A DNA stretch of 32,803 bases from a virus. This document shows, piece by piece, positions 14,396 to 32,803 of this stretch (within the stretch, counting starts at the first letter, position 1; the number at the start of each line of letters is the position of its first letter). Under the pieces are notes generated by a model that searched no databases, was not told the DNA's origin, and was given only the letters and a program-made list of their open reading frames with translations. The stretch covers positions 1 through 32,803 of IMG/VR virus record IMGVR_UViG_3300044640_001757, one strand, 5' to 3'. The position numbers and the translations under genes are program-made.

Positions 14396-14418
14396 AAAAA
14401 AAACGACCGCCAGCGGTC
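14396..14418 (-). terminator. Intrinsic terminator of the repressor transcript
   Basis: On the minus strand GACCGC/GCGGTC (14418-14413 with 14410-14405) forms a tight stem. One G follows, then eight T (14403-14396). It lies 141 nt past the repressor stop and just before the PL region, so it insulates repressor transcription from the early-left operon. Confidence 0.8.
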
Positions 14419-14437
14419 ATGCCTTATCATGGGGGGC

Positions 14438-14629
14438 ATGAAAAAAAGCAGTCATCACTGTGATTTACAGGATGCGGAATTTCTTGTGCTGATAGAGCCG
14501 GGTGGCATGAGTGAAAATGCCATGAACAGTCTCGCCAGAGCGCATGGCGAGCTGGGTGTCAGGGCTTTGGTTTTTCCAGATGAGCGTCTGCATGCTGAGT
14601 GGCGCGAGCGCCTTGCAGCACTGACATGA
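14438..14629 (+). CDS. Possible small protein antisense to the repressor 3' end
   Basis: 63 residues from the ATG at 14438, preceded by GGGGGG; ATG 14429 is an alternative. It contains EFLVLIEPGGMSENAMNSLA and ends RLHAEWRERLAALT, a plausible small protein composition. It overlaps the end of the repressor gene by 71 bp on the opposite strand, and no good rightward promoter is visible. It is kept at low confidence because both the overlap and the missing promoter argue against it. Confidence 0.35.
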   Translation: MKKSSHHCDLQDAEFLVLIEPGGMSENAMNSLARAHGELGVRALVFPDERLHAEWRERLAALT

Positions 14630-15002
14630 TGGCGGTCGTGGCCAGGTTGAAGGCCTGGGCGCGAGCAATCCTGTCGGATGCGGGAATCATGTCGTAAAGC
14701 GCCGCCATTTCGATGGCGGCACGAGTCAGCTCGGTCGGAACGTTGCTCGGTGAGGGCAATGTCATTTCACCAACCCCATTCAACAGCCAGTCTGGATTGA
14801 CCTTCAGGAACCCGGCCACGGCTGCGTGCGCCTTCGCGCCAAACTTCTGGTCACGGCCTTTGCTGTTGTTGATGATGATGCCGACGTTCTGAACAGAGCA
14901 ATCGGCAACCTTGGCAACCATCGCGCGCGTGATGACCTGACCTGTTATATGCCCACGCCAATCCATCGCCGCCTGTAATCTCTCTCCATACAGCATTTGC
15001 AC
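14559..15002 (-). CDS. CI-like prophage repressor without protease domain
   Basis: 147 residues with a GTG at 15002 (GGGG 6 nt upstream; ATG 14996 is possible). The N-terminal XRE-type helix-turn-helix is MVAKVADCSVQNVGIIINN, followed by the typical AAVAGFLKVNPDWLLNGVGEM. The C-terminal half is helical and has none of the S24/LexA Ser-Lys protease features; the length is also too short for it. It should therefore not self-cleave on SOS induction and probably needs the antirepressor encoded across the switch. It faces the Cro-like gene. Confidence 0.85.
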   Translation of the reverse strand: MQMLYGERLQAAMDWRGHITGQVITRAMVAKVADCSVQNVGIIINNSKGRDQKFGAKAHAAVAGFLKVNPDWLLNGVGEMTLPSPSNVPTELTRAAIEMAALYDMIPASDRIARAQAFNLATTAIMSVLQGARATQHADAHLEKPKP

Positions 15003-15024: not shown

Positions 15025-15066
15025 TTTGTTTTCAAGCAAAACGAATACATGGTTACAATGCGGGCG
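15025..15066 (+). promoter_or_regulatory. Rightward early promoter PR with palindromic operator
   Basis: TACAAT (15054-15059) is a good -10, with a weak -35 (TTCAAG, 15031-15036) 17 nt before it. The inverted repeat GTTTT-CAAGC-AAAAC (15028-15042) overlaps the -35 and is the likely repressor/Cro site. TTTGTTTTCAA (15025-15035) recurs at PL. Transcription would begin at about 15066-15067, on the A of the chosen cro start codon. Confidence 0.6.
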
Positions 15067-15273
15067 ATGAAAAAGCAAGAAGCCATTGATTTACTTGGTG
15101 GCACGCCAATGCGTGCAGCAAAGAACCTTGGGGTGACGGTCCAGTGCATCTACAAGTGGCCCGACGAACTGCCCGAAGCAATTTCGGACAGGGTTGTTGG
15201 GGCAATCGTCAGGCTTGCCGCAAAGGGCATCCCAAAGACGAAGACAGTCGTGACGACTGTTGAGGAAGCGTGA
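15067..15273 (+). CDS. Cro-like repressor, probably from a leaderless mRNA
   Basis: 68 residues. MKKQEAIDLLGG followed by RAAKNLGVTVQCIYKWPDELPE is the P22-Cro pattern; IYKWPDELPE is highly characteristic of that group. ATGs at 15049 and 15058 are in frame, but the first lies upstream of the -10 and the second inside it. The ATG at 15067 sits at the predicted transcription start and has no ribosome site. It should repress early promoters through the operator palindrome. Its tail is Thr/Val-rich. Confidence 0.85.
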   Translation: MKKQEAIDLLGGTPMRAAKNLGVTVQCIYKWPDELPEAISDRVVGAIVRLAAKGIPKTKTVVTTVEEA

Positions 15274-15306: not shown

Positions 15307-15534
15307 ATGGCCGCTGACAAAACCGAGCTGCGCGGCCTCGCGCCAACCGAGCTGGCCAATGCATTGGATTGCATTGCGCTGTCCAAGGGCATGGACCGCA
15401 ACACATACGTCTTGCAGGTGCTGGACGCGGAGGTCAGGAAGGTGATGCATGAGTTCAGTGTCCTTCAGCGAACCATGCGCGGCAATCCATACCTGTCGGA
15501 GCACGACGGAGCCACCCGCGTAAGTGGCCAGTAG
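15307..15534 (+). CDS. Ribbon-helix-helix (Arc/CopG-type) DNA-binding protein
   Basis: 75 residues; ATG at 15307 with AGGAGG 7 nt upstream. The RHH pattern is clear: a strand TELRGL, helix 1 APTELANALDCIALSKG, turn MDRNTY, helix 2 VLQVLDAEVRKVMHE. A basic tail follows (VLQRTMRGNP). RHH proteins bind DNA as dimers. It sits between cro and the antirepressor exactly where Arc sits before ant in P22. An Arc-like role in restraining antirepressor transcription is inference from position. Confidence 0.75.
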   Translation: MAADKTELRGLAPTELANALDCIALSKGMDRNTYVLQVLDAEVRKVMHEFSVLQRTMRGNPYLSEHDGATRVSGQ

Positions 15535-15537
15535 GCC

Positions 15538-15582
15538 AAAAAAAAGCCCCTCATCAACGCAGCGACAACTGCTCAGAGGGGC
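15538..15582 (-). terminator. Minus-strand intrinsic terminator between RHH and antirepressor genes
   Basis: GCCCCTC (15546-15552) pairs perfectly with GAGGGGC (15576-15582), with an inner GCAG/CTGC stem (15559-15562 with 15569-15572). Eight T follow on the minus strand (15545-15538). On the plus strand there is no T-run after the hairpin, so rightward transcription should pass. Confidence 0.8.
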
Positions 15583-15643
15583 CAGACACAAACGCCTCAA
15601 GCAAACCAATGCACCAGACAGCACATCAATCCACATGAAAGGC
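15538..15643 (-). ncRNA. Candidate sar-like antisense RNA to the antirepressor leader
   Basis: A minus-strand promoter candidate (15650-15676) and a minus-strand terminator (15538-15582) frame a transcript of about 100-106 nt. It is complementary to the untranslated leader of the antirepressor mRNA, including part of its ribosome-binding sequence AAAGGCGGG (15638-15646). No minus-strand gene exists here for the terminator to serve. P22 sar RNA has the same position and orientation between arc and ant. Sequence homology to sar is not claimed; only the architecture matches. Confidence 0.5.
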
Positions 15644-15649
15644 GGGTCA

Positions 15650-15676
15650 ATTATGACACATGACAACAAAGGTCAA
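15650..15676 (-). promoter_or_regulatory. Candidate promoter for the antisense RNA
   Basis: On the minus strand TTGACC (15676-15671) is followed after 15 nt by CATAAT (15655-15650), each one base off consensus. TGT directly before CATAAT makes an extended -10, which tolerates the short spacing. The -10 covers the antirepressor start codon (ATG 15653). The predicted start is near 15643. Confidence 0.45.
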
Positions 15677-16453
15677 CAGCAGCCAACGCTGTTGGGGCTA
15701 TTCAACAGCCTCCAGATACCAACGCCAGCACAACACCAGGCACCCACGAAAAAGGGTGTCAGCCAAACCGGCACCCTTGGCATGACGCAAACCATGTCCA
15801 GCCGCGAGATTGCGGAATTGACTGGGAAGGACCACAAGAACGTCATCCGCGACATTCGCGCCATGCTGGACGAGCTGGAAAAAGATGGCTCAGATTTGAG
15901 CCATCAATACCGCGAGGAAAAAGATGCTCGCGGGTACACCTCCTGCTTTCACCTCGACCGTGAATTGACCGACTGCCTGCTGACTGGGTACAGCGTTTCG
16001 GCACGGAGGCGCGTCATCAAGCGGTGGCACGAGCTGGAGGCGAAAGTGGCCTCGCCAGCTCTGCCCAACGAGTTGAGCAAGCTCGAAATCCTGAAGCTGG
16101 CCATCGAATCAGAAGAGGCCAAGCTGAAGGCCGAAGCGGAGCGCGACGAGGCCATCCGCACCAAAGCACTCATTGGGTCCAGGCGCGAGGCCACGGCCAT
16201 GGCGACGGCTGCCAAAGAGGTTCGCGCACGCAAGCGCCTTGAGATTGAGTTGGACCGCTCAATCGAGTGGGCAACCATCAAAAAGATGCAAGCCATCCAC
16301 GGCGGCAACTACTCATGGCACCTGCTGAAGAAGGCTTCTGAGGTGCGCGGCATTGAGATTCACAAGGTCCAGGACGAGAACTACCCAGCCGGAGTGAACA
16401 GCTATCACTCATCTGTCTGGATGGCCGTCTACCAACTTCCGGTGAGCGTCTGA
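15653..16453 (+). CDS. Rha-type phage antirepressor
   Basis: 266 residues from the ATG at 15653 (GGCGGG 6 nt upstream; ATG 15635 is possible). Residues 46-130 are the Rha regulatory domain: SSREIAELTGKDHKNVIRDI, then YTSCFHLDRELTDCLLTGYS and ARRRVIKRWHELEAK. A charged helix (140-172) follows. The C-terminal 90 residues include GGNYSWHLLKKASEVRGIEI and NYPAGVNSYHSSVWMAVY, typical of the DNA- or protein-binding tails of antirepressors. It probably inactivates the CI-like repressor. Its translation may be limited by the antisense RNA over its leader. Confidence 0.85.
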   Translation: MTHDNKGQQQPTLLGLFNSLQIPTPAQHQAPTKKGVSQTGTLGMTQTMSSREIAELTGKDHKNVIRDIRAMLDELEKDGSDLSHQYREEKDARGYTSCFHLDRELTDCLLTGYSVSARRRVIKRWHELEAKVASPALPNELSKLEILKLAIESEEAKLKAEAERDEAIRTKALIGSRREATAMATAAKEVRARKRLEIELDRSIEWATIKKMQAIHGGNYSWHLLKKASEVRGIEIHKVQDENYPAGVNSYHSSVWMAVYQLPVSV

Positions 16454-16455
16454 CC

Positions 16456-17208
16456 ATGCACTACTACAAACGGAACCTGGGCGACTACGCCAAGAAAGCT
16501 GGACGTTTGACCATGCTTCAGCACGGAGCGTACACGCTTTTGACAGATGCGTGCTACGACCGTGAACGCTTCCCCACGCTTGATGAAGCAATCGACTGGA
16601 CGTGGGCCAGCACAGAGGCCGAAATCGAAGCGGTCAAGTTCGTTCTGCGCAAATTCTTCACGCTTGAGGCGGGTGTTTACGTTCAGAAGCGCATTCAAGA
16701 GGAAGTTGGCGAGTACCACACCAAGTCCACGACCAATGCCCGAATAGCCAAGGAACGTGAGGCAAAGCGCAAGGAATCGTCCACGGAACGTACACGAAAC
16801 GTTAACGACTCGTCACCAGGTGACAACGAACCGCCACCTAACCAAGAACCAATAACCATTAACCATAAAGAAGAAAAAGAAAAAGAGAAAAAAGAAAAAA
16901 CCGACAAGCCCAAGCGAACCACCCCAGTCACCCGACCGGAGGACGTTGCCGAGCAAACCTGGACCGACTGGCTGGCACTGCGCAAGGCCAAGAACGCCCC
17001 GGTGACCGAGACGGTGCTGAAGTCGGCCATTGGCGAGGCACAGAAGGCAAACCTGTCGCTCAACCGATTCCTGGAAATCTGGTGCGCCAGGGGGTCACAG
17101 GGGCTTGAGGCATCCTGGCTGAAGGACAGCGAACGCCAGCGCCCCGCCAACACAAACCGCTTTGCCGGTGCTGCTGCGGCACTTTTCGAGGATGCCCCCC
17201 ATGTCTGA
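16456..17208 (+). CDS. YdaU/DUF1376-family replication protein
   Basis: 250 residues. The N-terminal 90 residues are DUF1376 (YdaU of the Rac prophage): YYKRNLGDYAKKAGRLTMLQ, HGAYTLLTDACYD, WTWASTEAEI, VLRKFF. A low-complexity Lys/Glu linker (KEEKEKEKKEKTDKPKR) joins it to a C-terminal domain of about 70 residues ending before FAGAAAALFED. The place of this gene before a P-like gene matches lambda O, so origin recognition is the likely role. No iterons were recognised inside the gene. Confidence 0.8.
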   Translation: MHYYKRNLGDYAKKAGRLTMLQHGAYTLLTDACYDRERFPTLDEAIDWTWASTEAEIEAVKFVLRKFFTLEAGVYVQKRIQEEVGEYHTKSTTNARIAKEREAKRKESSTERTRNVNDSSPGDNEPPPNQEPITINHKEEKEKEKKEKTDKPKRTTPVTRPEDVAEQTWTDWLALRKAKNAPVTETVLKSAIGEAQKANLSLNRFLEIWCARGSQGLEASWLKDSERQRPANTNRFAGAAAALFEDAPHV

Positions 17209-27263: not shown

Positions 27264-28160
27264 TTAGAAGATGGTTTGCGTGATGGACGAGAGCGTGCCG
27301 TCCGGGTTGTAGTTGAACGTCTTGCGCGTGGTGGTCGCGCCGACAACGTAATCGAGCTGCGTGAGCACGCCGGATGTGTAGGTGAAGGTCTTGTAATTCC
27401 CGCTGTCGTAATCGACCCGCGTCAGCAGCCCGCCCGTGTATGTCATCGCCGGGCCAGCCTCAACGAGTGCGGCCGGGCCTTGCGGACCCTGCGGGCCTGT
27501 GTCCCCGGTGTCGCCTTTCAGGCCTTGTGGCCCCTGAAGTCCTTGGACACCCTGCGGACCTTGTGGGCCAGTGTCTCCGGTGTCACCCTTCGGACCCTGC
27601 GGGCCTTGCGGTCCGGCAACCCCGGCTACCCCCTGTTGACCAGTCGCACCAGGTAAGCCCTGTGGCCCCTGTGGACCTTGCGGGCCTGCGTCACCCGTGT
27701 CGCCCTTCGGACCTTGTGGACCTTGTGGACCTTGCAAACCCTGGGTGCCAGTTGCACCCATGTCGCCCTTGATGCCCTGCGGGCCTTGTGGTCCAGTCAG
27801 ACCCTGTGGACCGACCTCACCTTGCGCCCCTTGCGGCCCCTGCGGACCTTGTGGTCCTTGTGGTCCGGTGTCACCAGTGTCGCCTTTTGGGCCAACTGGT
27901 CCGGTTGGCCCGGTTGGTCCGACCGGTCCGGTGTCACCAGTGTCGCCCTTCGGCCCGACCAGCGAGGCAAGCCACTGAGCCTCGGTGCCGACAAATCCAT
28001 TCTGCAAAGCCACCCAGTACGCGGACGGGCCGACACCAGGCGGGCCTTGAGTCCCAACCTCCACCAACTCAAAGACGGTCGGCGGAGACTCAACAAGTTC
28101 TGTGACAGTCTGGGTGGACTCAACCACCTCCGACTCGGTGACTATCACCAGGTCCGTCAT
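27264..28160 (-). CDS. Collagen-like phage tail fibre protein
   Basis: 298 residues; ATG at 28160 in an ATGA overlap. Residues 1-40 are acidic and Val/Thr-rich, then [20 protein letters not shown], a motif typical just before phage collagen repeats. Residues about 68-231 are Gly-X-Y triplets ([18 protein letters not shown]). The C-terminal 65 residues form YD-type strands ([20 protein letters not shown]), a likely trimerisation or receptor-binding tip. It should form a trimeric collagen rod on the virion. Confidence 0.85.
27468..27959 (-). repeat. Gly-X-Y coding repeat of the fibre gene
   Basis: About 490 bp of degenerate 9-bp units code for GPQ/GPK/GDT triplets. A '[15 protein letters not shown]' block recurs several times with one- or two-codon changes, consistent with expansion by recombination. 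Copy number could vary between isolates. Confidence 0.85.
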
Positions 28161-28563: not shown

Positions 28564-28686
28564 CTATGGCCCGTTTTTCACCCAAAGCACGCACAGGCCG
28601 ATGGCCAGGATTCCCCAGCCAATCGGCCCCAGTGAGGCGGCGACAGCCACCGCACCCAAAAGCGCGCAAGCTCCGCTCGCCTTCAC
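28564..28686 (-). CDS. 40-residue single-pass membrane microprotein
   Basis: A GTG at 28686 overlaps the stop of the giant gene (GTGA). The frame runs 40 codons to TAG at 28566-28564. It has a basic start (MKASGA), a hydrophobic core (LLGAVAVAASLGPIGWGILA, then IGLCVLW) and a polar end (VKNGP). It probably spans the membrane once or as a hairpin. Function unknown; GTGA coupling to the upstream virion protein is the main support. Confidence 0.6.
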   Translation of the reverse strand: MKASGACALLGAVAVAASLGPIGWGILAIGLCVLWVKNGP

Positions 28687-31600
28687 AGGCCCAGCCCTTC
28701 GCGCACCTGGGCGCGAATCTCAACCGGCGCAGCCTTGGCCACGCGCTCTGCTTTGGTCAACCGCATTTCTCTCACCCTTCTGGCAATCTGAGGCATACCA
28801 ACCCTGATTGGGGTATCCGGGTTGTCTGCATTCCACTGAGCCAGGTCGGCCCTGGCTTCAGCAACCATATCAGGGTCTTGCAAGAAAATCCCCTTCGCCC
28901 ACTTGTCGGAGATTTCAGCCTCGCGCATGCGGTTGATGCCGGCCATTCGCTGCGCCTGAAAGCTGGCATCCTGGATGGTGGCTACTTGGTTTGGCTGGAA
29001 CCCGATTGCCTTGGCTGCCGCGTCGAACCCGTCCACGTCCAGCACCTTCCTGCCCCTCTTGTCCATATACATGCCGGTGTTGGCCATTTCGATGGACTTG
29101 GCCAGGTTCTGAGCGGCGATTGGCGAGGCGGTGACGAGTGCGCCGCGCGTGCCGCCAATGTCGCCCATGACCAGCTTTTCGCCGGCACTGGCGAATCTGG
29201 CAACCAGGTCGCCAGCGGGTCCGGCAATCTCCTTCAGGTCTTGGGTGTGGTCTGGCTTCTTGACCATCAGGCCGGTGGCGGGAATCAGGTTGCCCATGCC
29301 AAACCGCCCGGACACGTCAACTGGCACGCCGGCCAGGCCGGACACGCCGCGCGTCATGAACTCGGCACCACCCTCGCCCAGCACGCTCGCAAAGAACTCG
29401 CGCTTTGCCTGCTTTGAGCTGAAGTTGTAGCCCATGCGCTGCATGACACCATCAATCAAGTCGTCAATGTCTTCCGCGAACGGCAGGCCACCGGCACCAG
29501 ACAGCAGGAACAGGATGGCCAGGCCCAGCAGTGCAGCCTTCTTGCCTTCCGGCCCGCCCTGCGTTGCCATGCGGTGCATCAGCTCGACATAGCTCACGCT
29601 GTACTGCTTGAAGGTGAACAGGACAGAGCCAATCGCGCCGCGTGCCCAACGTGGCTTGTTCGCCTTGGAGTAGATGAACTGGGTTTCATTGATGGCCCGC
29701 TCCGCGAATGCGGCCGGATTCTGCATGCCCTGCTCGACCGCCGTGCGGTAGGCGGCAATGAAGGTCGTGCGCCGGTTGAACTGCTCGGCCACACCGAACA
29801 TGCGCCCCCATGCCAGCCCAAACTTTGTCAGCAAGTTCTGGGCATTGGCAGAAGCATCTCCGAGCGCCGTGCCGTCACCAGACTGGAGTGCAGCCCGGCC
29901 AGCGGCCTGCGCCTGCAACTGGAACACCTCTTGAGGCGAGACAATGCCCTCTTCCTCTGCCCGCTTCATTGCCGCGTCAAGTGCAGCATCCCCGGTTTGC
30001 TTCTTCAGGGCGTCCTTGGCGGCTGCCGTCATCTGCTTGGCTGCCTTGGATGCTCCGCCGAACTGGCTCAACCATGGCATCGTCACGGCGAATGGCTGGG
30101 TCGTGTTGACGATGGCCGATGCCACCGAGCCGCCGATGTACTGAGCGAACAGCAGCCCACGGAACGCCTGCGCCTCTTCCTGCGGGTTCTTGACGTACTC
30201 GGCCAGCCTGACAGCGTGGTCCTTCAGCTCGCCCATTCCCTTGGGAATGGCTGCCACAGCCTGTGTCAGCTCTCCCATGTTCAAGGCTCCAGCAGTCTGG
30301 CGGGCGTTGGAGTACACGAAGCCAGCCAGCACGCGGCCGGGGTCTTCGCTGAAACCGGCGATGCCCTTGCGGTGGATGAGTCGCTTCATGGCCGAGCGGT
30401 TGGCCTTGGCTTGCTTCAGGTACTGCTGGAAAGCAATGTCAGCAGTCTCGGTGCCCTCGTTCTCCATGCCCAGCATCTGCCCGAAAAGCTCAACCGTCTC
30501 GGGCGAAATGCCCGCGAACATCTTGTACTCTTCCTGGCTGACGGTGCCCTGAGAAATGGTTGCGCCCGGGTAGTTGGCCTGCATGCGCCGCGCCATCTTG
30601 TTGGCCTCGCGCTGGTTCTCGAACAGGCCAAAGTACACCCGCTGCCCAGTCTCGTCCAACACGTCCAGGGTGTAGGTGCCGAAGCGGGAGAGCGGCGCAT
30701 AGCCCTTGTCCATCAAGCCCTGGTACTTGTTGACCTTGGACACCATTTTCCCGATGGTGTCCAGCAGCACGGACGCACGGCGCGGCTCGCCGGCAGCCAC
30801 CGCGCGGAGCTGTCGGCCGGCCAATTCCAGAGCGGCCGGGAAGCTGCCGGCAGCCATCACCTCGTCGGCCACCGCCTCCAAGTCCTTGCCGCCGAAGCGA
30901 ACCAGGTCGGCCAAACCCATGTTCAACAGGCTCTTGTCCACCGAAGCGCGGAACTCGCGGTACAGGCTGATTTGGTCGTCGCTCAGGTCAAACTGCTCGC
31001 GCAACTCGGCATCTGTGAACACCACGCCTGGCTCGGTGTCCTCGTCGGCCTGGTCGATGCGGAACAGCGAGCCGTCATCCCTGCGGCCCCATATCAGCGT
31101 GCCCTCGAAGATGGGCGCTGCAATGGCATCACTGTCTTGCTTGCTGATGCTGGTCTTGGTGAGGTCTTTCAGGCTCTCCAGCTTGGGCAGGATGCGCTTC
31201 GCCTCGTCGGCTGCCTCAGTCGCATAGAAAGACACGTCGTTGATGAAGCCCTGCGCCGACTCAAACACGCGCCTGAACGCGGGGTTGCGCTGCGCCAGGT
31301 CGTACTGGGTGCCCACGGTCTTGTGCCACCAATCCAGCTTGCCGCTCGACTTGAACAGGTCGTTGACTACATACCCGGCAGGCAACTGCATGGCCCCGAC
31401 GTTGTTCACGCCATCGGTCAGCGCATCGCCAATGGAGCGGCTGAACATGGAACCATCGGAATCATCGGTCACTACAACAGCGGGGAATGACTTCGCGCCC
31501 AACAGAAACAATGCCTCGGCCCTGTGCCCACCCTCAAGGATGTATGGCCCATCTGAATCGACCACTACGATGAGTGGCTTTATCTCGCCAGACCGCTTGA

Positions 31601-32803
31601 TTTCTTCGGCCAGTTTTTCAATGCGCTGAGTCTCCGAGGCTGAGTACGATTTCCCGGTCAGCTTGAAGTCAGACACTGGCACCTCTCGGATGCCGCGCAG
31701 CACAGTGTAGTCATCGAGCGACGACTTGATTGATGACATATTCGGCACATCATCAAGGACAGTCCGGCCATCAACAGAAGAGCCGGCCATGCGGTATTTG
31801 CCACCCGCCTGCTCTGCATCGCGGCTGAACCGCACCCCACCACCAGGCCCGCCATTCGGCCCGCCGTTCACCACGAAGTTGCGAGCGGGCAGGATGAACT
31901 GGGTGATGATTTCGTCATCAGTCAGGGCCATTTTCCCGAAGCCAGGAATATGCTTGCGCAGCCATGCCTTGATGGTGGCCACCGCGCGGCGCACAAAGCC
32001 AATCTGCGGCGAGGTCTGTGCCATTTCGGCCAGGATTTCCTCGGCTGCCACCAGCTTGTCCATGCTGGACACGCCACGCAAGCCGTACTCCTTCATCTTG
32101 GCCGCAATCTGTGACTTGCGCATGGTCGCAATCTGCTGGAGCAATGGCTTCAGCTCCTTGCCGAACACGCCACGCAACCCGTAGTGCCCCAGTGCCTCGT
32201 GGAACAGCACGCGAACAACGTCCTTTGGCGTGGACAGCTTGGACGACATGAGGTACACGGTGCCCTTGTAGTAGAAGCCCTCCGGCGTGCCAGTGGCACC
32301 GCCGCTGCGTTGCTTCTGGTCTTCCGCGCGGACGCGCTCGGGGATGGCCGGGTCATTCATGTCGAACGCCACAACCACCTTTGGCGCGTTGGCCCAACGC
32401 GAGGTAACCAGGTCAACAATCTGCTGCGTCACCCCGTTGGCTTGACCCTGTGCCGCGCGGCTGAAGGTTGGGCGTGCGCGGCTGAACACCACATCAGACT
32501 CATTTGCCTCTGGTGCCCCGGTCTGCTTGACGTTGGTCGAAACGTCCTTCTTCTTTGGGCGCGGGCCTGGCTTCATCCTGGCCGTGTATGTGGTGATGCC
32601 ACCGTCAATCTTCTGCTCGATGATTGCCTGCTCGCCGTCCCTGTTGATGGCATCCATCATCGTGACGCCATTTCTTACCGGCACCTGGACGCCAGTTGTC
32701 TGGTACTGCTCGCCGTCAATCTCGAACTGCTTGATGGCTTCTGGTGCCGCCTTGATGCCGGAACTGAGGATTCGCCTTCTGTCGCTGGCAATGAAGCGGT
32801 TTG
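28683..32803 (-). CDS. Giant polyvalent virion protein (PLxRFG type), N-terminus cut
   Basis: 1372 residues are visible; the frame is open to the right edge, and the GTG at 32684 is not a trustworthy start. In order: a zinc-protease-like motif HEALGH (32201-32184) with a downstream EEILAE; a ParB-like segment (about 31685-31467: VPVSDF, EEIKRSGEIKPLIVVVDSDG, EGGHRAEALFLLG); long helical regions; PLSRFG (30695-30678), mark of PLxRFG domain proteins; a hydrophobic segment (AALLGLAILFLLSGAGG); and a helical basic tail. Such proteins are thought to be packaged and ejected with the DNA. Functions of the parts here are by homology only. Confidence 0.85.
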   Translation of the reverse strand, partial: NRFIASDRRRILSSGIKAAPEAIKQFEIDGEQYQTTGVQVPVRNGVTMMDAINRDGEQAIIEQKIDGGITTYTARMKPGPRPKKKDVSTNVKQTGAPEANESDVVFSRARPTFSRAAQGQANGVTQQIVDLVTSRWANAPKVVVAFDMNDPAIPERVRAEDQKQRSGGATGTPEGFYYKGTVYLMSSKLSTPKDVVRVLFHEALGHYGLRGVFGKELKPLLQQIATMRKSQIAAKMKEYGLRGVSSMDKLVAAEEILAEMAQTSPQIGFVRRAVATIKAWLRKHIPGFGKMALTDDEIITQFILPARNFVVNGGPNGGPGGGVRFSRDAEQAGGKYRMAGSSVDGRTVLDDVPNMSSIKSSLDDYTVLRGIREVPVSDFKLTGKSYSASETQRIEKLAEEIKRSGEIKPLIVVVDSDGPYILEGGHRAEALFLLGAKSFPAVVVTDDSDGSMFSRSIGDALTDGVNNVGAMQLPAGYVVNDLFKSSGKLDWWHKTVGTQYDLAQRNPAFRRVFESAQGFINDVSFYATEAADEAKRILPKLESLKDLTKTSISKQDSDAIAAPIFEGTLIWGRRDDGSLFRIDQADEDTEPGVVFTDAELREQFDLSDDQISLYREFRASVDKSLLNMGLADLVRFGGKDLEAVADEVMAAGSFPAALELAGRQLRAVAAGEPRRASVLLDTIGKMVSKVNKYQGLMDKGYAPLSRFGTYTLDVLDETGQRVYFGLFENQREANKMARRMQANYPGATISQGTVSQEEYKMFAGISPETVELFGQMLGMENEGTETADIAFQQYLKQAKANRSAMKRLIHRKGIAGFSEDPGRVLAGFVYSNARQTAGALNMGELTQAVAAIPKGMGELKDHAVRLAEYVKNPQEEAQAFRGLLFAQYIGGSVASAIVNTTQPFAVTMPWLSQFGGASKAAKQMTAAAKDALKKQTGDAALDAAMKRAEEEGIVSPQEVFQLQAQAAGRAALQSGDGTALGDASANAQNLLTKFGLAWGRMFGVAEQFNRRTTFIAAYRTAVEQGMQNPAAFAERAINETQFIYSKANKPRWARGAIGSVLFTFKQYSVSYVELMHRMATQGGPEGKKAALLGLAILFLLSGAGGLPFAEDIDDLIDGVMQRMGYNFSSKQAKREFFASVLGEGGAEFMTRGVSGLAGVPVDVSGRFGMGNLIPATGLMVKKPDHTQDLKEIAGPAGDLVARFASAGEKLVMGDIGGTRGALVTASPIAAQNLAKSIEMANTGMYMDKRGRKVLDVDGFDAAAKAIGFQPNQVATIQDASFQAQRMAGINRMREAEISDKWAKGIFLQDPDMVAEARADLAQWNADNPDTPIRVGMPQIARRVREMRLTKAERVAKAAPVEIRAQVREGLGL

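Follow-up and report, generated by a model that had tools for sequence, protein, structure and literature searches.

Rha-family antirepressor-type genes are repeatedly preceded, on the opposite strand, by an intrinsic terminator in the gene's leader and a matched sigma70-type promoter at its start, and this antisense unit is not a product of chance. The small antisense RNA that the two elements predict over the Rha start is a widespread module, since terminators and promoters recur in two separately collected sets of Rha genes and the terminator stems covary. The predicted device occurs in prophages of alpha-, beta- and gammaproteobacteria.

The unit was analysed from a viral stretch of 32,803 nt (IMG/VR record IMGVR_UViG_3300044640_001757; hereafter, the window), in which it lies between a gene for a ribbon-helix-helix (RHH) protein and rha, within a rightward early operon (Table 1). 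The rha leader after the RHH gene is 118 nt long, and rha is followed by a DUF1376/primosomal gene and helicase-loader-like genes. The Rha protein falls within Pfam family PF09669 (E 3.8e-14, 53.5 bits, cut-off 29.9) and matches phrog_4936 (E 4.8e-54) and several anti-repressor PHROGs, the names of which are the basis for its putative role as an antirepressor, a trigger of exit from dormancy. An earlier, sequence-only reading of this locus had placed the RHH ORF, the A8 run and hairpin, the Shine-Dalgarno sequence, the rha ATG at 15653 and the minus-strand promoter correctly to the base. Its remark that the minus-strand hairpin serves no minus-strand gene also agrees with the layout, the next such gene being the repressor, downstream of the terminator. 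The late region of the window encodes a collagen-like G-X-Y repeat protein and an adjoining 1333-aa protein (27264-28160 and 28683-32684, both on the minus strand).

Table 1. Features of the rha locus and its predicted antisense unit, in window coordinates
Feature	Position	Strand	Basis and remarks
CI-position repressor	14559..15002	-	147 aa; divergent from the rightward operon; ORF list and PHROG repressor matches
Cro-like protein, first gene of the rightward operon	15049..15273	+	P22_Cro E 5.3e-6 (just under cut-off); phrog_409
Arc-like ribbon-helix-helix (RHH) protein, 75 aa	15307..15534	+	AF2 model; Foldseek/VIA matches
Antisense intrinsic terminator	15538..15583	-	Hairpin 15583-15546, T8 15545-15538
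Predicted antisense RNA, ~106 nt	15537..15643	-	Inferred from promoter and terminator; TSS ~15643
rha Shine-Dalgarno GAAAGG	15637..15642	+	Within the predicted antisense RNA span
Antisense extended -10 TGT-CATAAT	15650..15658	-	Overlaps the rha start codon; CATAAT = 15655-15650
Antisense -35 TTGACC	15671..15676	-	15-nt spacer; 17 in most relatives
Rha-family antirepressor-type regulator, 266 aa	15653..16453	+	PF09669, phrog_4936
DUF1376/primosomal O-like replication protein, next operon gene	16456..17208	+	Pfam and PHROG matches

In the window, the A8 run (15538-15545) abuts a stem formed by GCCCCTC (15546-15552) and GAGGGGC (15576-15582), so that the minus strand reads as a hairpin followed by T8. 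RNA folding, a check suggested by the sequence-only reading, gave -21.9 kcal/mol (z -2.8) for the minus strand. Terminators near rha were scanned with loops longer than 8 nt allowed, as an 8-nt limit misses the leader hairpin; this hairpin (dG -21.4, 7 T of 8) outranked every other minus-strand terminator near rha and was the sole one within the rha leader. A programmed frameshift at the A8 run was ruled out, the run lying 3′ of the RHH stop codon. Under a simple sigma70 weight matrix of our own making, with approximate scores and thresholds, the antisense promoter ranked 1 of 65,542 positions on both strands of the window, and between 1 and 18 when the spacer penalty and extended -10 bonus were varied. 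Together, the elements predict an RNA of ~106 nt starting near 15643, in line with the RNA of about 100 nt, antisense to the rha leader and part of its Shine-Dalgarno sequence, that had been proposed. The window is an outlier of its class because of its 15-nt spacer (17 nt in the class) and longer leader (69 nt to the hairpin, compared with ~30).

Rha genes were collected with a degenerate pattern for M[ST][ST]REIAELTGK from viral contigs (set 1) and GTDB genomes (set 2), their starts being picked by a Shine-Dalgarno heuristic, and were scored for an antisense intrinsic terminator at most 160 nt upstream of the start. A first pass found one in 49 of 103 Rha genes among the matches listed, compared with 33 of 587 other leader-bearing genes of the same loci and 9.5% of dinucleotide shuffles; sense terminators at Rha were rarer than in controls. 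After removal of near-duplicates, antisense terminators preceded 37 of 86 viral and 39 of 109 genome Rha genes among the matches listed (76/195 when pooled and deduplicated), against 77 of 1337 control genes, with Fisher P values of 1e-20 and 3e-18, respectively, that are inflated by kinship among the phages. Sense terminators (four in each set, among the matches listed) were not enriched. Clustered by protein identity, the listed matches carry the unit in 32/103 Rha clusters at 70% and 51/150 at 80%. About 60% of the listed Rha genes are without the unit and roughly 40% have it, so it is not obligatory for Rha. BRO-N antirepressors were at background (8/95), which rules out the antisense terminator as a general property of antirepressors.

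The promoter goes with the terminator. Leaders with a terminator mostly have ATTATG at the start codon (read as CATAAT from the minus strand) and a TTG exactly 17 nt further into the gene, a pattern that was first noticed among the viral genes and that the genome set reproduced. Among the matches listed, a minus-strand TTG at spacer 17 from the start-codon -10 accompanied the terminator in 19/37 viral and 21/39 genome genes, compared with 2/49 and 2/70 Rha genes without a terminator and 26/1337 controls. The ATTATG start itself was found in 14/37 and 18/39 of the listed genes with a terminator (32/76 pooled), in none without one (0/49 and 0/70; 0/119 pooled) and in 19/1337 controls. Median sigma70 scores, which are approximate, were 8.6 in both sets with a terminator, 4.8 and 4.2 without (among the matches listed), and 3.6 in controls. 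Acetobacteraceae, Xenorhabdus and others have a second layout, in which the extended -10 (TGCTATnnT) is placed a few bases into the coding sequence. Since the promoter accompanies the terminator and is missing where Rha genes have none, the two come as a unit. Conservation in relatives had been put forward as a check on the window unit, and promoter and terminator are indeed kept in diverse phages despite sequence drift. One locus recovered by an RHH homologue scan, L004, has RHH, antisense terminator and Rha in the order of the window, with TTGTCA-17-CATAAT on the minus strand and a leader sequence unrelated to that of the window.

The predicted antisense RNA has a median length of 54 nt in relatives (among the matches listed), about half that in the window. 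In 29 Pseudomonas-type units, the terminator stem shows compensatory double changes at 4 of 12 pairs, and five pairs with G-U/A-U exchanges that pair solely in the antisense RNA. These exchanges join the A/G-rich 5′ flank to the U-tract and are mismatches if read as sense RNA, which argues that the structure acts on the antisense strand. The median distance from the upstream stop codon to the terminator is 16 nt (among the matches listed), and in the window the hairpin edge lies 10 nt past the RHH stop; the RNA would thus be mostly confined to the rha leader.

These elements probably act in the lysogen to repress Rha synthesis through an RNA antisense in cis, a block that strong rightward transcription would lift. 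A constitutive sigma70 promoter on the opposite strand, over the rha start and first codons, together with a terminator just after the RHH gene, would yield a short cis-antisense RNA. With its rightward promoter repressed, a lysogen would accumulate this RNA, which would anneal to the leader and Shine-Dalgarno sequence of any stray rha mRNA. Translation would thereby be blocked and the mRNA probably exposed to RNase III, and transcription into rha may also be hindered by the antisense promoter. Upon derepression, strong rightward transcription would override the antisense RNA, so that the antirepressor would appear only after lytic transcription is established. The upstream RHH protein may add a second brake, as Arc does in P22.

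An unlikely alternative is that the unit is an OOP-type element, a descendant or analogue of lambda OOP, whose main target is the upstream regulator (in the cII/RHH position) or the replication genes rather than rha. In its favour, the lambda pO promoter has the geometry of the first layout, with TTGAGT-17-TGT-CATAAT overlapping the O start codon. The unit is located between a Cro/CII-position gene and replication genes, ORFs upstream of unit-bearing Rha are often CP76-type CII, YdaS or Cro, and at some loci the RNA extends into the 3′ end of the RHH gene. An apparent overlap with the upstream ORF is present at 17 of 58 loci, where the RNA could act on that ORF instead; however, the terminator lies past the upstream stop in the other 41 and in the window, so that the RNA misses the upstream gene, and the unit tracks Rha while control and BRO-N genes remain at background. 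At six loci (L153, L192, L249, L123, L176 and L200; the named hosts are Acetobacteraceae and Rhizobiales), the predicted antisense RNA reaches 30-60 nt into the 3′ end of the upstream RHH gene and might therefore target both genes, in the way that OOP acts on cII.

The terminator might also merely insulate, stopping leftward transcription from entering cro and cI with no dedicated small RNA. A terminator alone would suffice for this purpose, and weaker minus-strand terminator-like sites lie inside rha at 15754-15776 and 15884-15905, yet a matched antisense promoter at fixed distance accompanies the terminator and is absent from Rha genes that lack it, which leaves insulation improbable. Least credible of all, at a very low probability, is a hairpin working on the sense strand as an rha mRNA leader structure for stability or translation: the plus strand folds well (-17.9 kcal/mol, z -4.2), but the conserved A-tract at the stem is a U-tract on the minus strand only, the G-U exchanges of the extended stem pair only there, and a sense-only structure has no need of an antisense promoter.

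The preferred reading, antisense repression of Rha, draws its resemblance to P22 partly from the upstream gene. The 75-aa protein has no Pfam match. Its AF2 model has helices at 14-26 and 31-59 after an extended segment, with a core pLDDT of 93-95. Almost all of its Foldseek/VIA matches are RHH proteins, among them four P22 Arc entries, TacA2, Rv0298 and ParD, at E-values that are weak (over 1) because the protein is small. The protein thus models as RHH-like, P22 Arc being one of the closest structures solved, and on this account the arc-sar-ant resemblance holds architecturally. RHH-like ORFs immediately precede 12/76 unit-bearing Rha genes, 7-10/119 that lack the unit (among the matches listed) and 13/1337 controls, as counted with an RHH profile seeded with some of the unit-bearing group; unbiased Pfam counts find Arc in both groups. 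In Pseudomonas, ORFs upstream of Rha are more often CII- (CP76), YdaS- or Cro-like. The pairing of an RHH gene with Rha therefore recurs, but it is not strictly tied to the presence of the antisense unit. Repression by the RHH protein, by analogy with Arc, may act as the second brake. Homologues of the window RHH protein were found neither in GTDB genomes (scan with A1) nor in phage records (tblastn). At three loci (L005 1741-1841, L006 4405-4461 and L007 486-561), homologues are followed by an antisense terminator ahead of non-rha genes, directly or one gene later; these encode an unknown 128-aa protein, a DGQHR-like protein and a helicase.

The repressor of the window, described in the sequence-only reading as CI-like and free of a protease domain, does lack a Pfam S24 peptidase domain, the search returning only a weak HTH_19 match at E 0.09. 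That reading had also proposed that the antisense control would set induction, a link weakened by L004 and L017, where the unit stands alongside S24 (cleavable) repressors; the unit is thus not tied to uncleavable repressors. The repressor gene of the window is followed by a strong minus-strand terminator at 14405-14453, the plus strand of which gives a weak, sub-threshold match to Rfam Chlorobi-1 (20 bits, cut-off 50).

The rha coding region also contains a perfect inverted repeat, GATGGCTCA-GATT-TGAGCCATC, at 15884-15905, ~90 nt after the MSSREI codons. Equivalents occur in 55 of 186 Rha genes among the matches listed, with arms of 7-12 bp and a spacer of mostly 4 nt; palindromes at this fixed position comprise at least 42 distinct sequences, compared with 0-8 for neighbouring stretches, and the encoded peptide varies where the palindrome lies. 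A role as a repeated operator was ruled out, second copies elsewhere in the loci being no more frequent than in controls. The palindrome is separate from the antisense RNA and may form a hairpin in the mRNA or mark a binding site that co-evolves. In Pseudomonas phage MR13, a gene annotated as a putative thioredoxin family protein (L018 1845-2579) starts with the Rha motif MSSREIADLTGK, and its leader contains an antisense terminator.

In P22 immI, Arc (an RHH protein) and the antisense sar RNA both limit Ant, and to our knowledge this antisense control, a textbook case, has been thought a local peculiarity. In the annotation of the P22 record, sar lies between arc and ant, and Psar is at the start of ant; scored in the same way, Psar (TGC-TATACT, spacer 17, at +6) is the second layout of the Rha units. 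The order of elements in the window is that of P22: an RHH gene comes first, the terminator of the predicted antisense RNA follows it closely, and the antirepressor is last. The two also share an antisense promoter at the antirepressor start and an RNA, predicted in the window, that covers leader and Shine-Dalgarno sequence. Unlike P22, its antirepressor is Rha rather than Ant, the unit belongs to the early cro-replication operon rather than to a separate immI, the -10 lies on the start codon rather than at +6 within the gene, and no divergent mnt gene is seen. The Rfam sar model (RF00262; gathering 43 bits) scores 97.8 bits on P22 itself and has no match in the window at gathering or at E up to 10. 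Across Rfam families, including sar and C4, the window had no match and 16 related loci had none at gathering, which rules out the window RNA as a member of these families. Sub-threshold sar matches on the predicted antisense RNAs of L190 (3944-4010, minus strand, 25.7 bits) and L130 (3160-3192, plus strand, 29.7 bits) hint that some may be true sar relatives. Sar-like units, with an extended -10 just inside the gene and a terminator, also precede BRO-N or ORF6N antirepressor-type genes in L106, L117 and L069, the first two with an RHH-like ORF upstream, and are possible arc-sar-ant arrangements with other antirepressors.

Lambda OOP offers a second comparison. The window shares its extended -10, TGT-CATAAT, overlapping the ATTATG start of the next gene, and a leftward RNA encoded between the gene in the cII position and the early gene that follows. 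It differs in that the next gene is rha rather than O, the spacer is 15 nt, and the terminator follows the upstream gene, making the RNA antisense to the rha leader instead of cII; the OOP-type overlap with the 3′ end of the upstream gene does not occur in the window. In promoter geometry and operon position, the unit is at least as close to lambda OOP as to P22 sar. Of the three-part arc-sar-ant logic first proposed, the architecture of RHH gene, promoter, terminator and antirepressor stands, whereas membership in the sar family does not, and the window RNA is sar-like by target, OOP-like by promoter and position, and a member of neither family.

The c4 RNA of P1/P7 and the CA RNA of N15 are processed from a same-strand transcript, whereas the window RNA is predicted to be cis-encoded on the opposite strand. 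These small RNAs likewise limit an antirepressor (PMC12197685, PMC10732415). The literature searched describes no antisense RNA for Rha, which is weak evidence of absence as subscription journals lie mostly outside it. The same device is predicted for a different and very common antirepressor-type family, and the unit may help explain the stable dormancy of phages whose repressor has no S24 domain. On balance, we favour the view that the Rha genes of temperate phages make up a large, unrecognised class under the control of a compact cis-antisense RNA with at least two independent promoter layouts, OOP-like and sar-like, and that antisense control of antirepressors is general, through re-use or convergence, rather than peculiar to P22, which would join sar and OOP in a single architectural picture.
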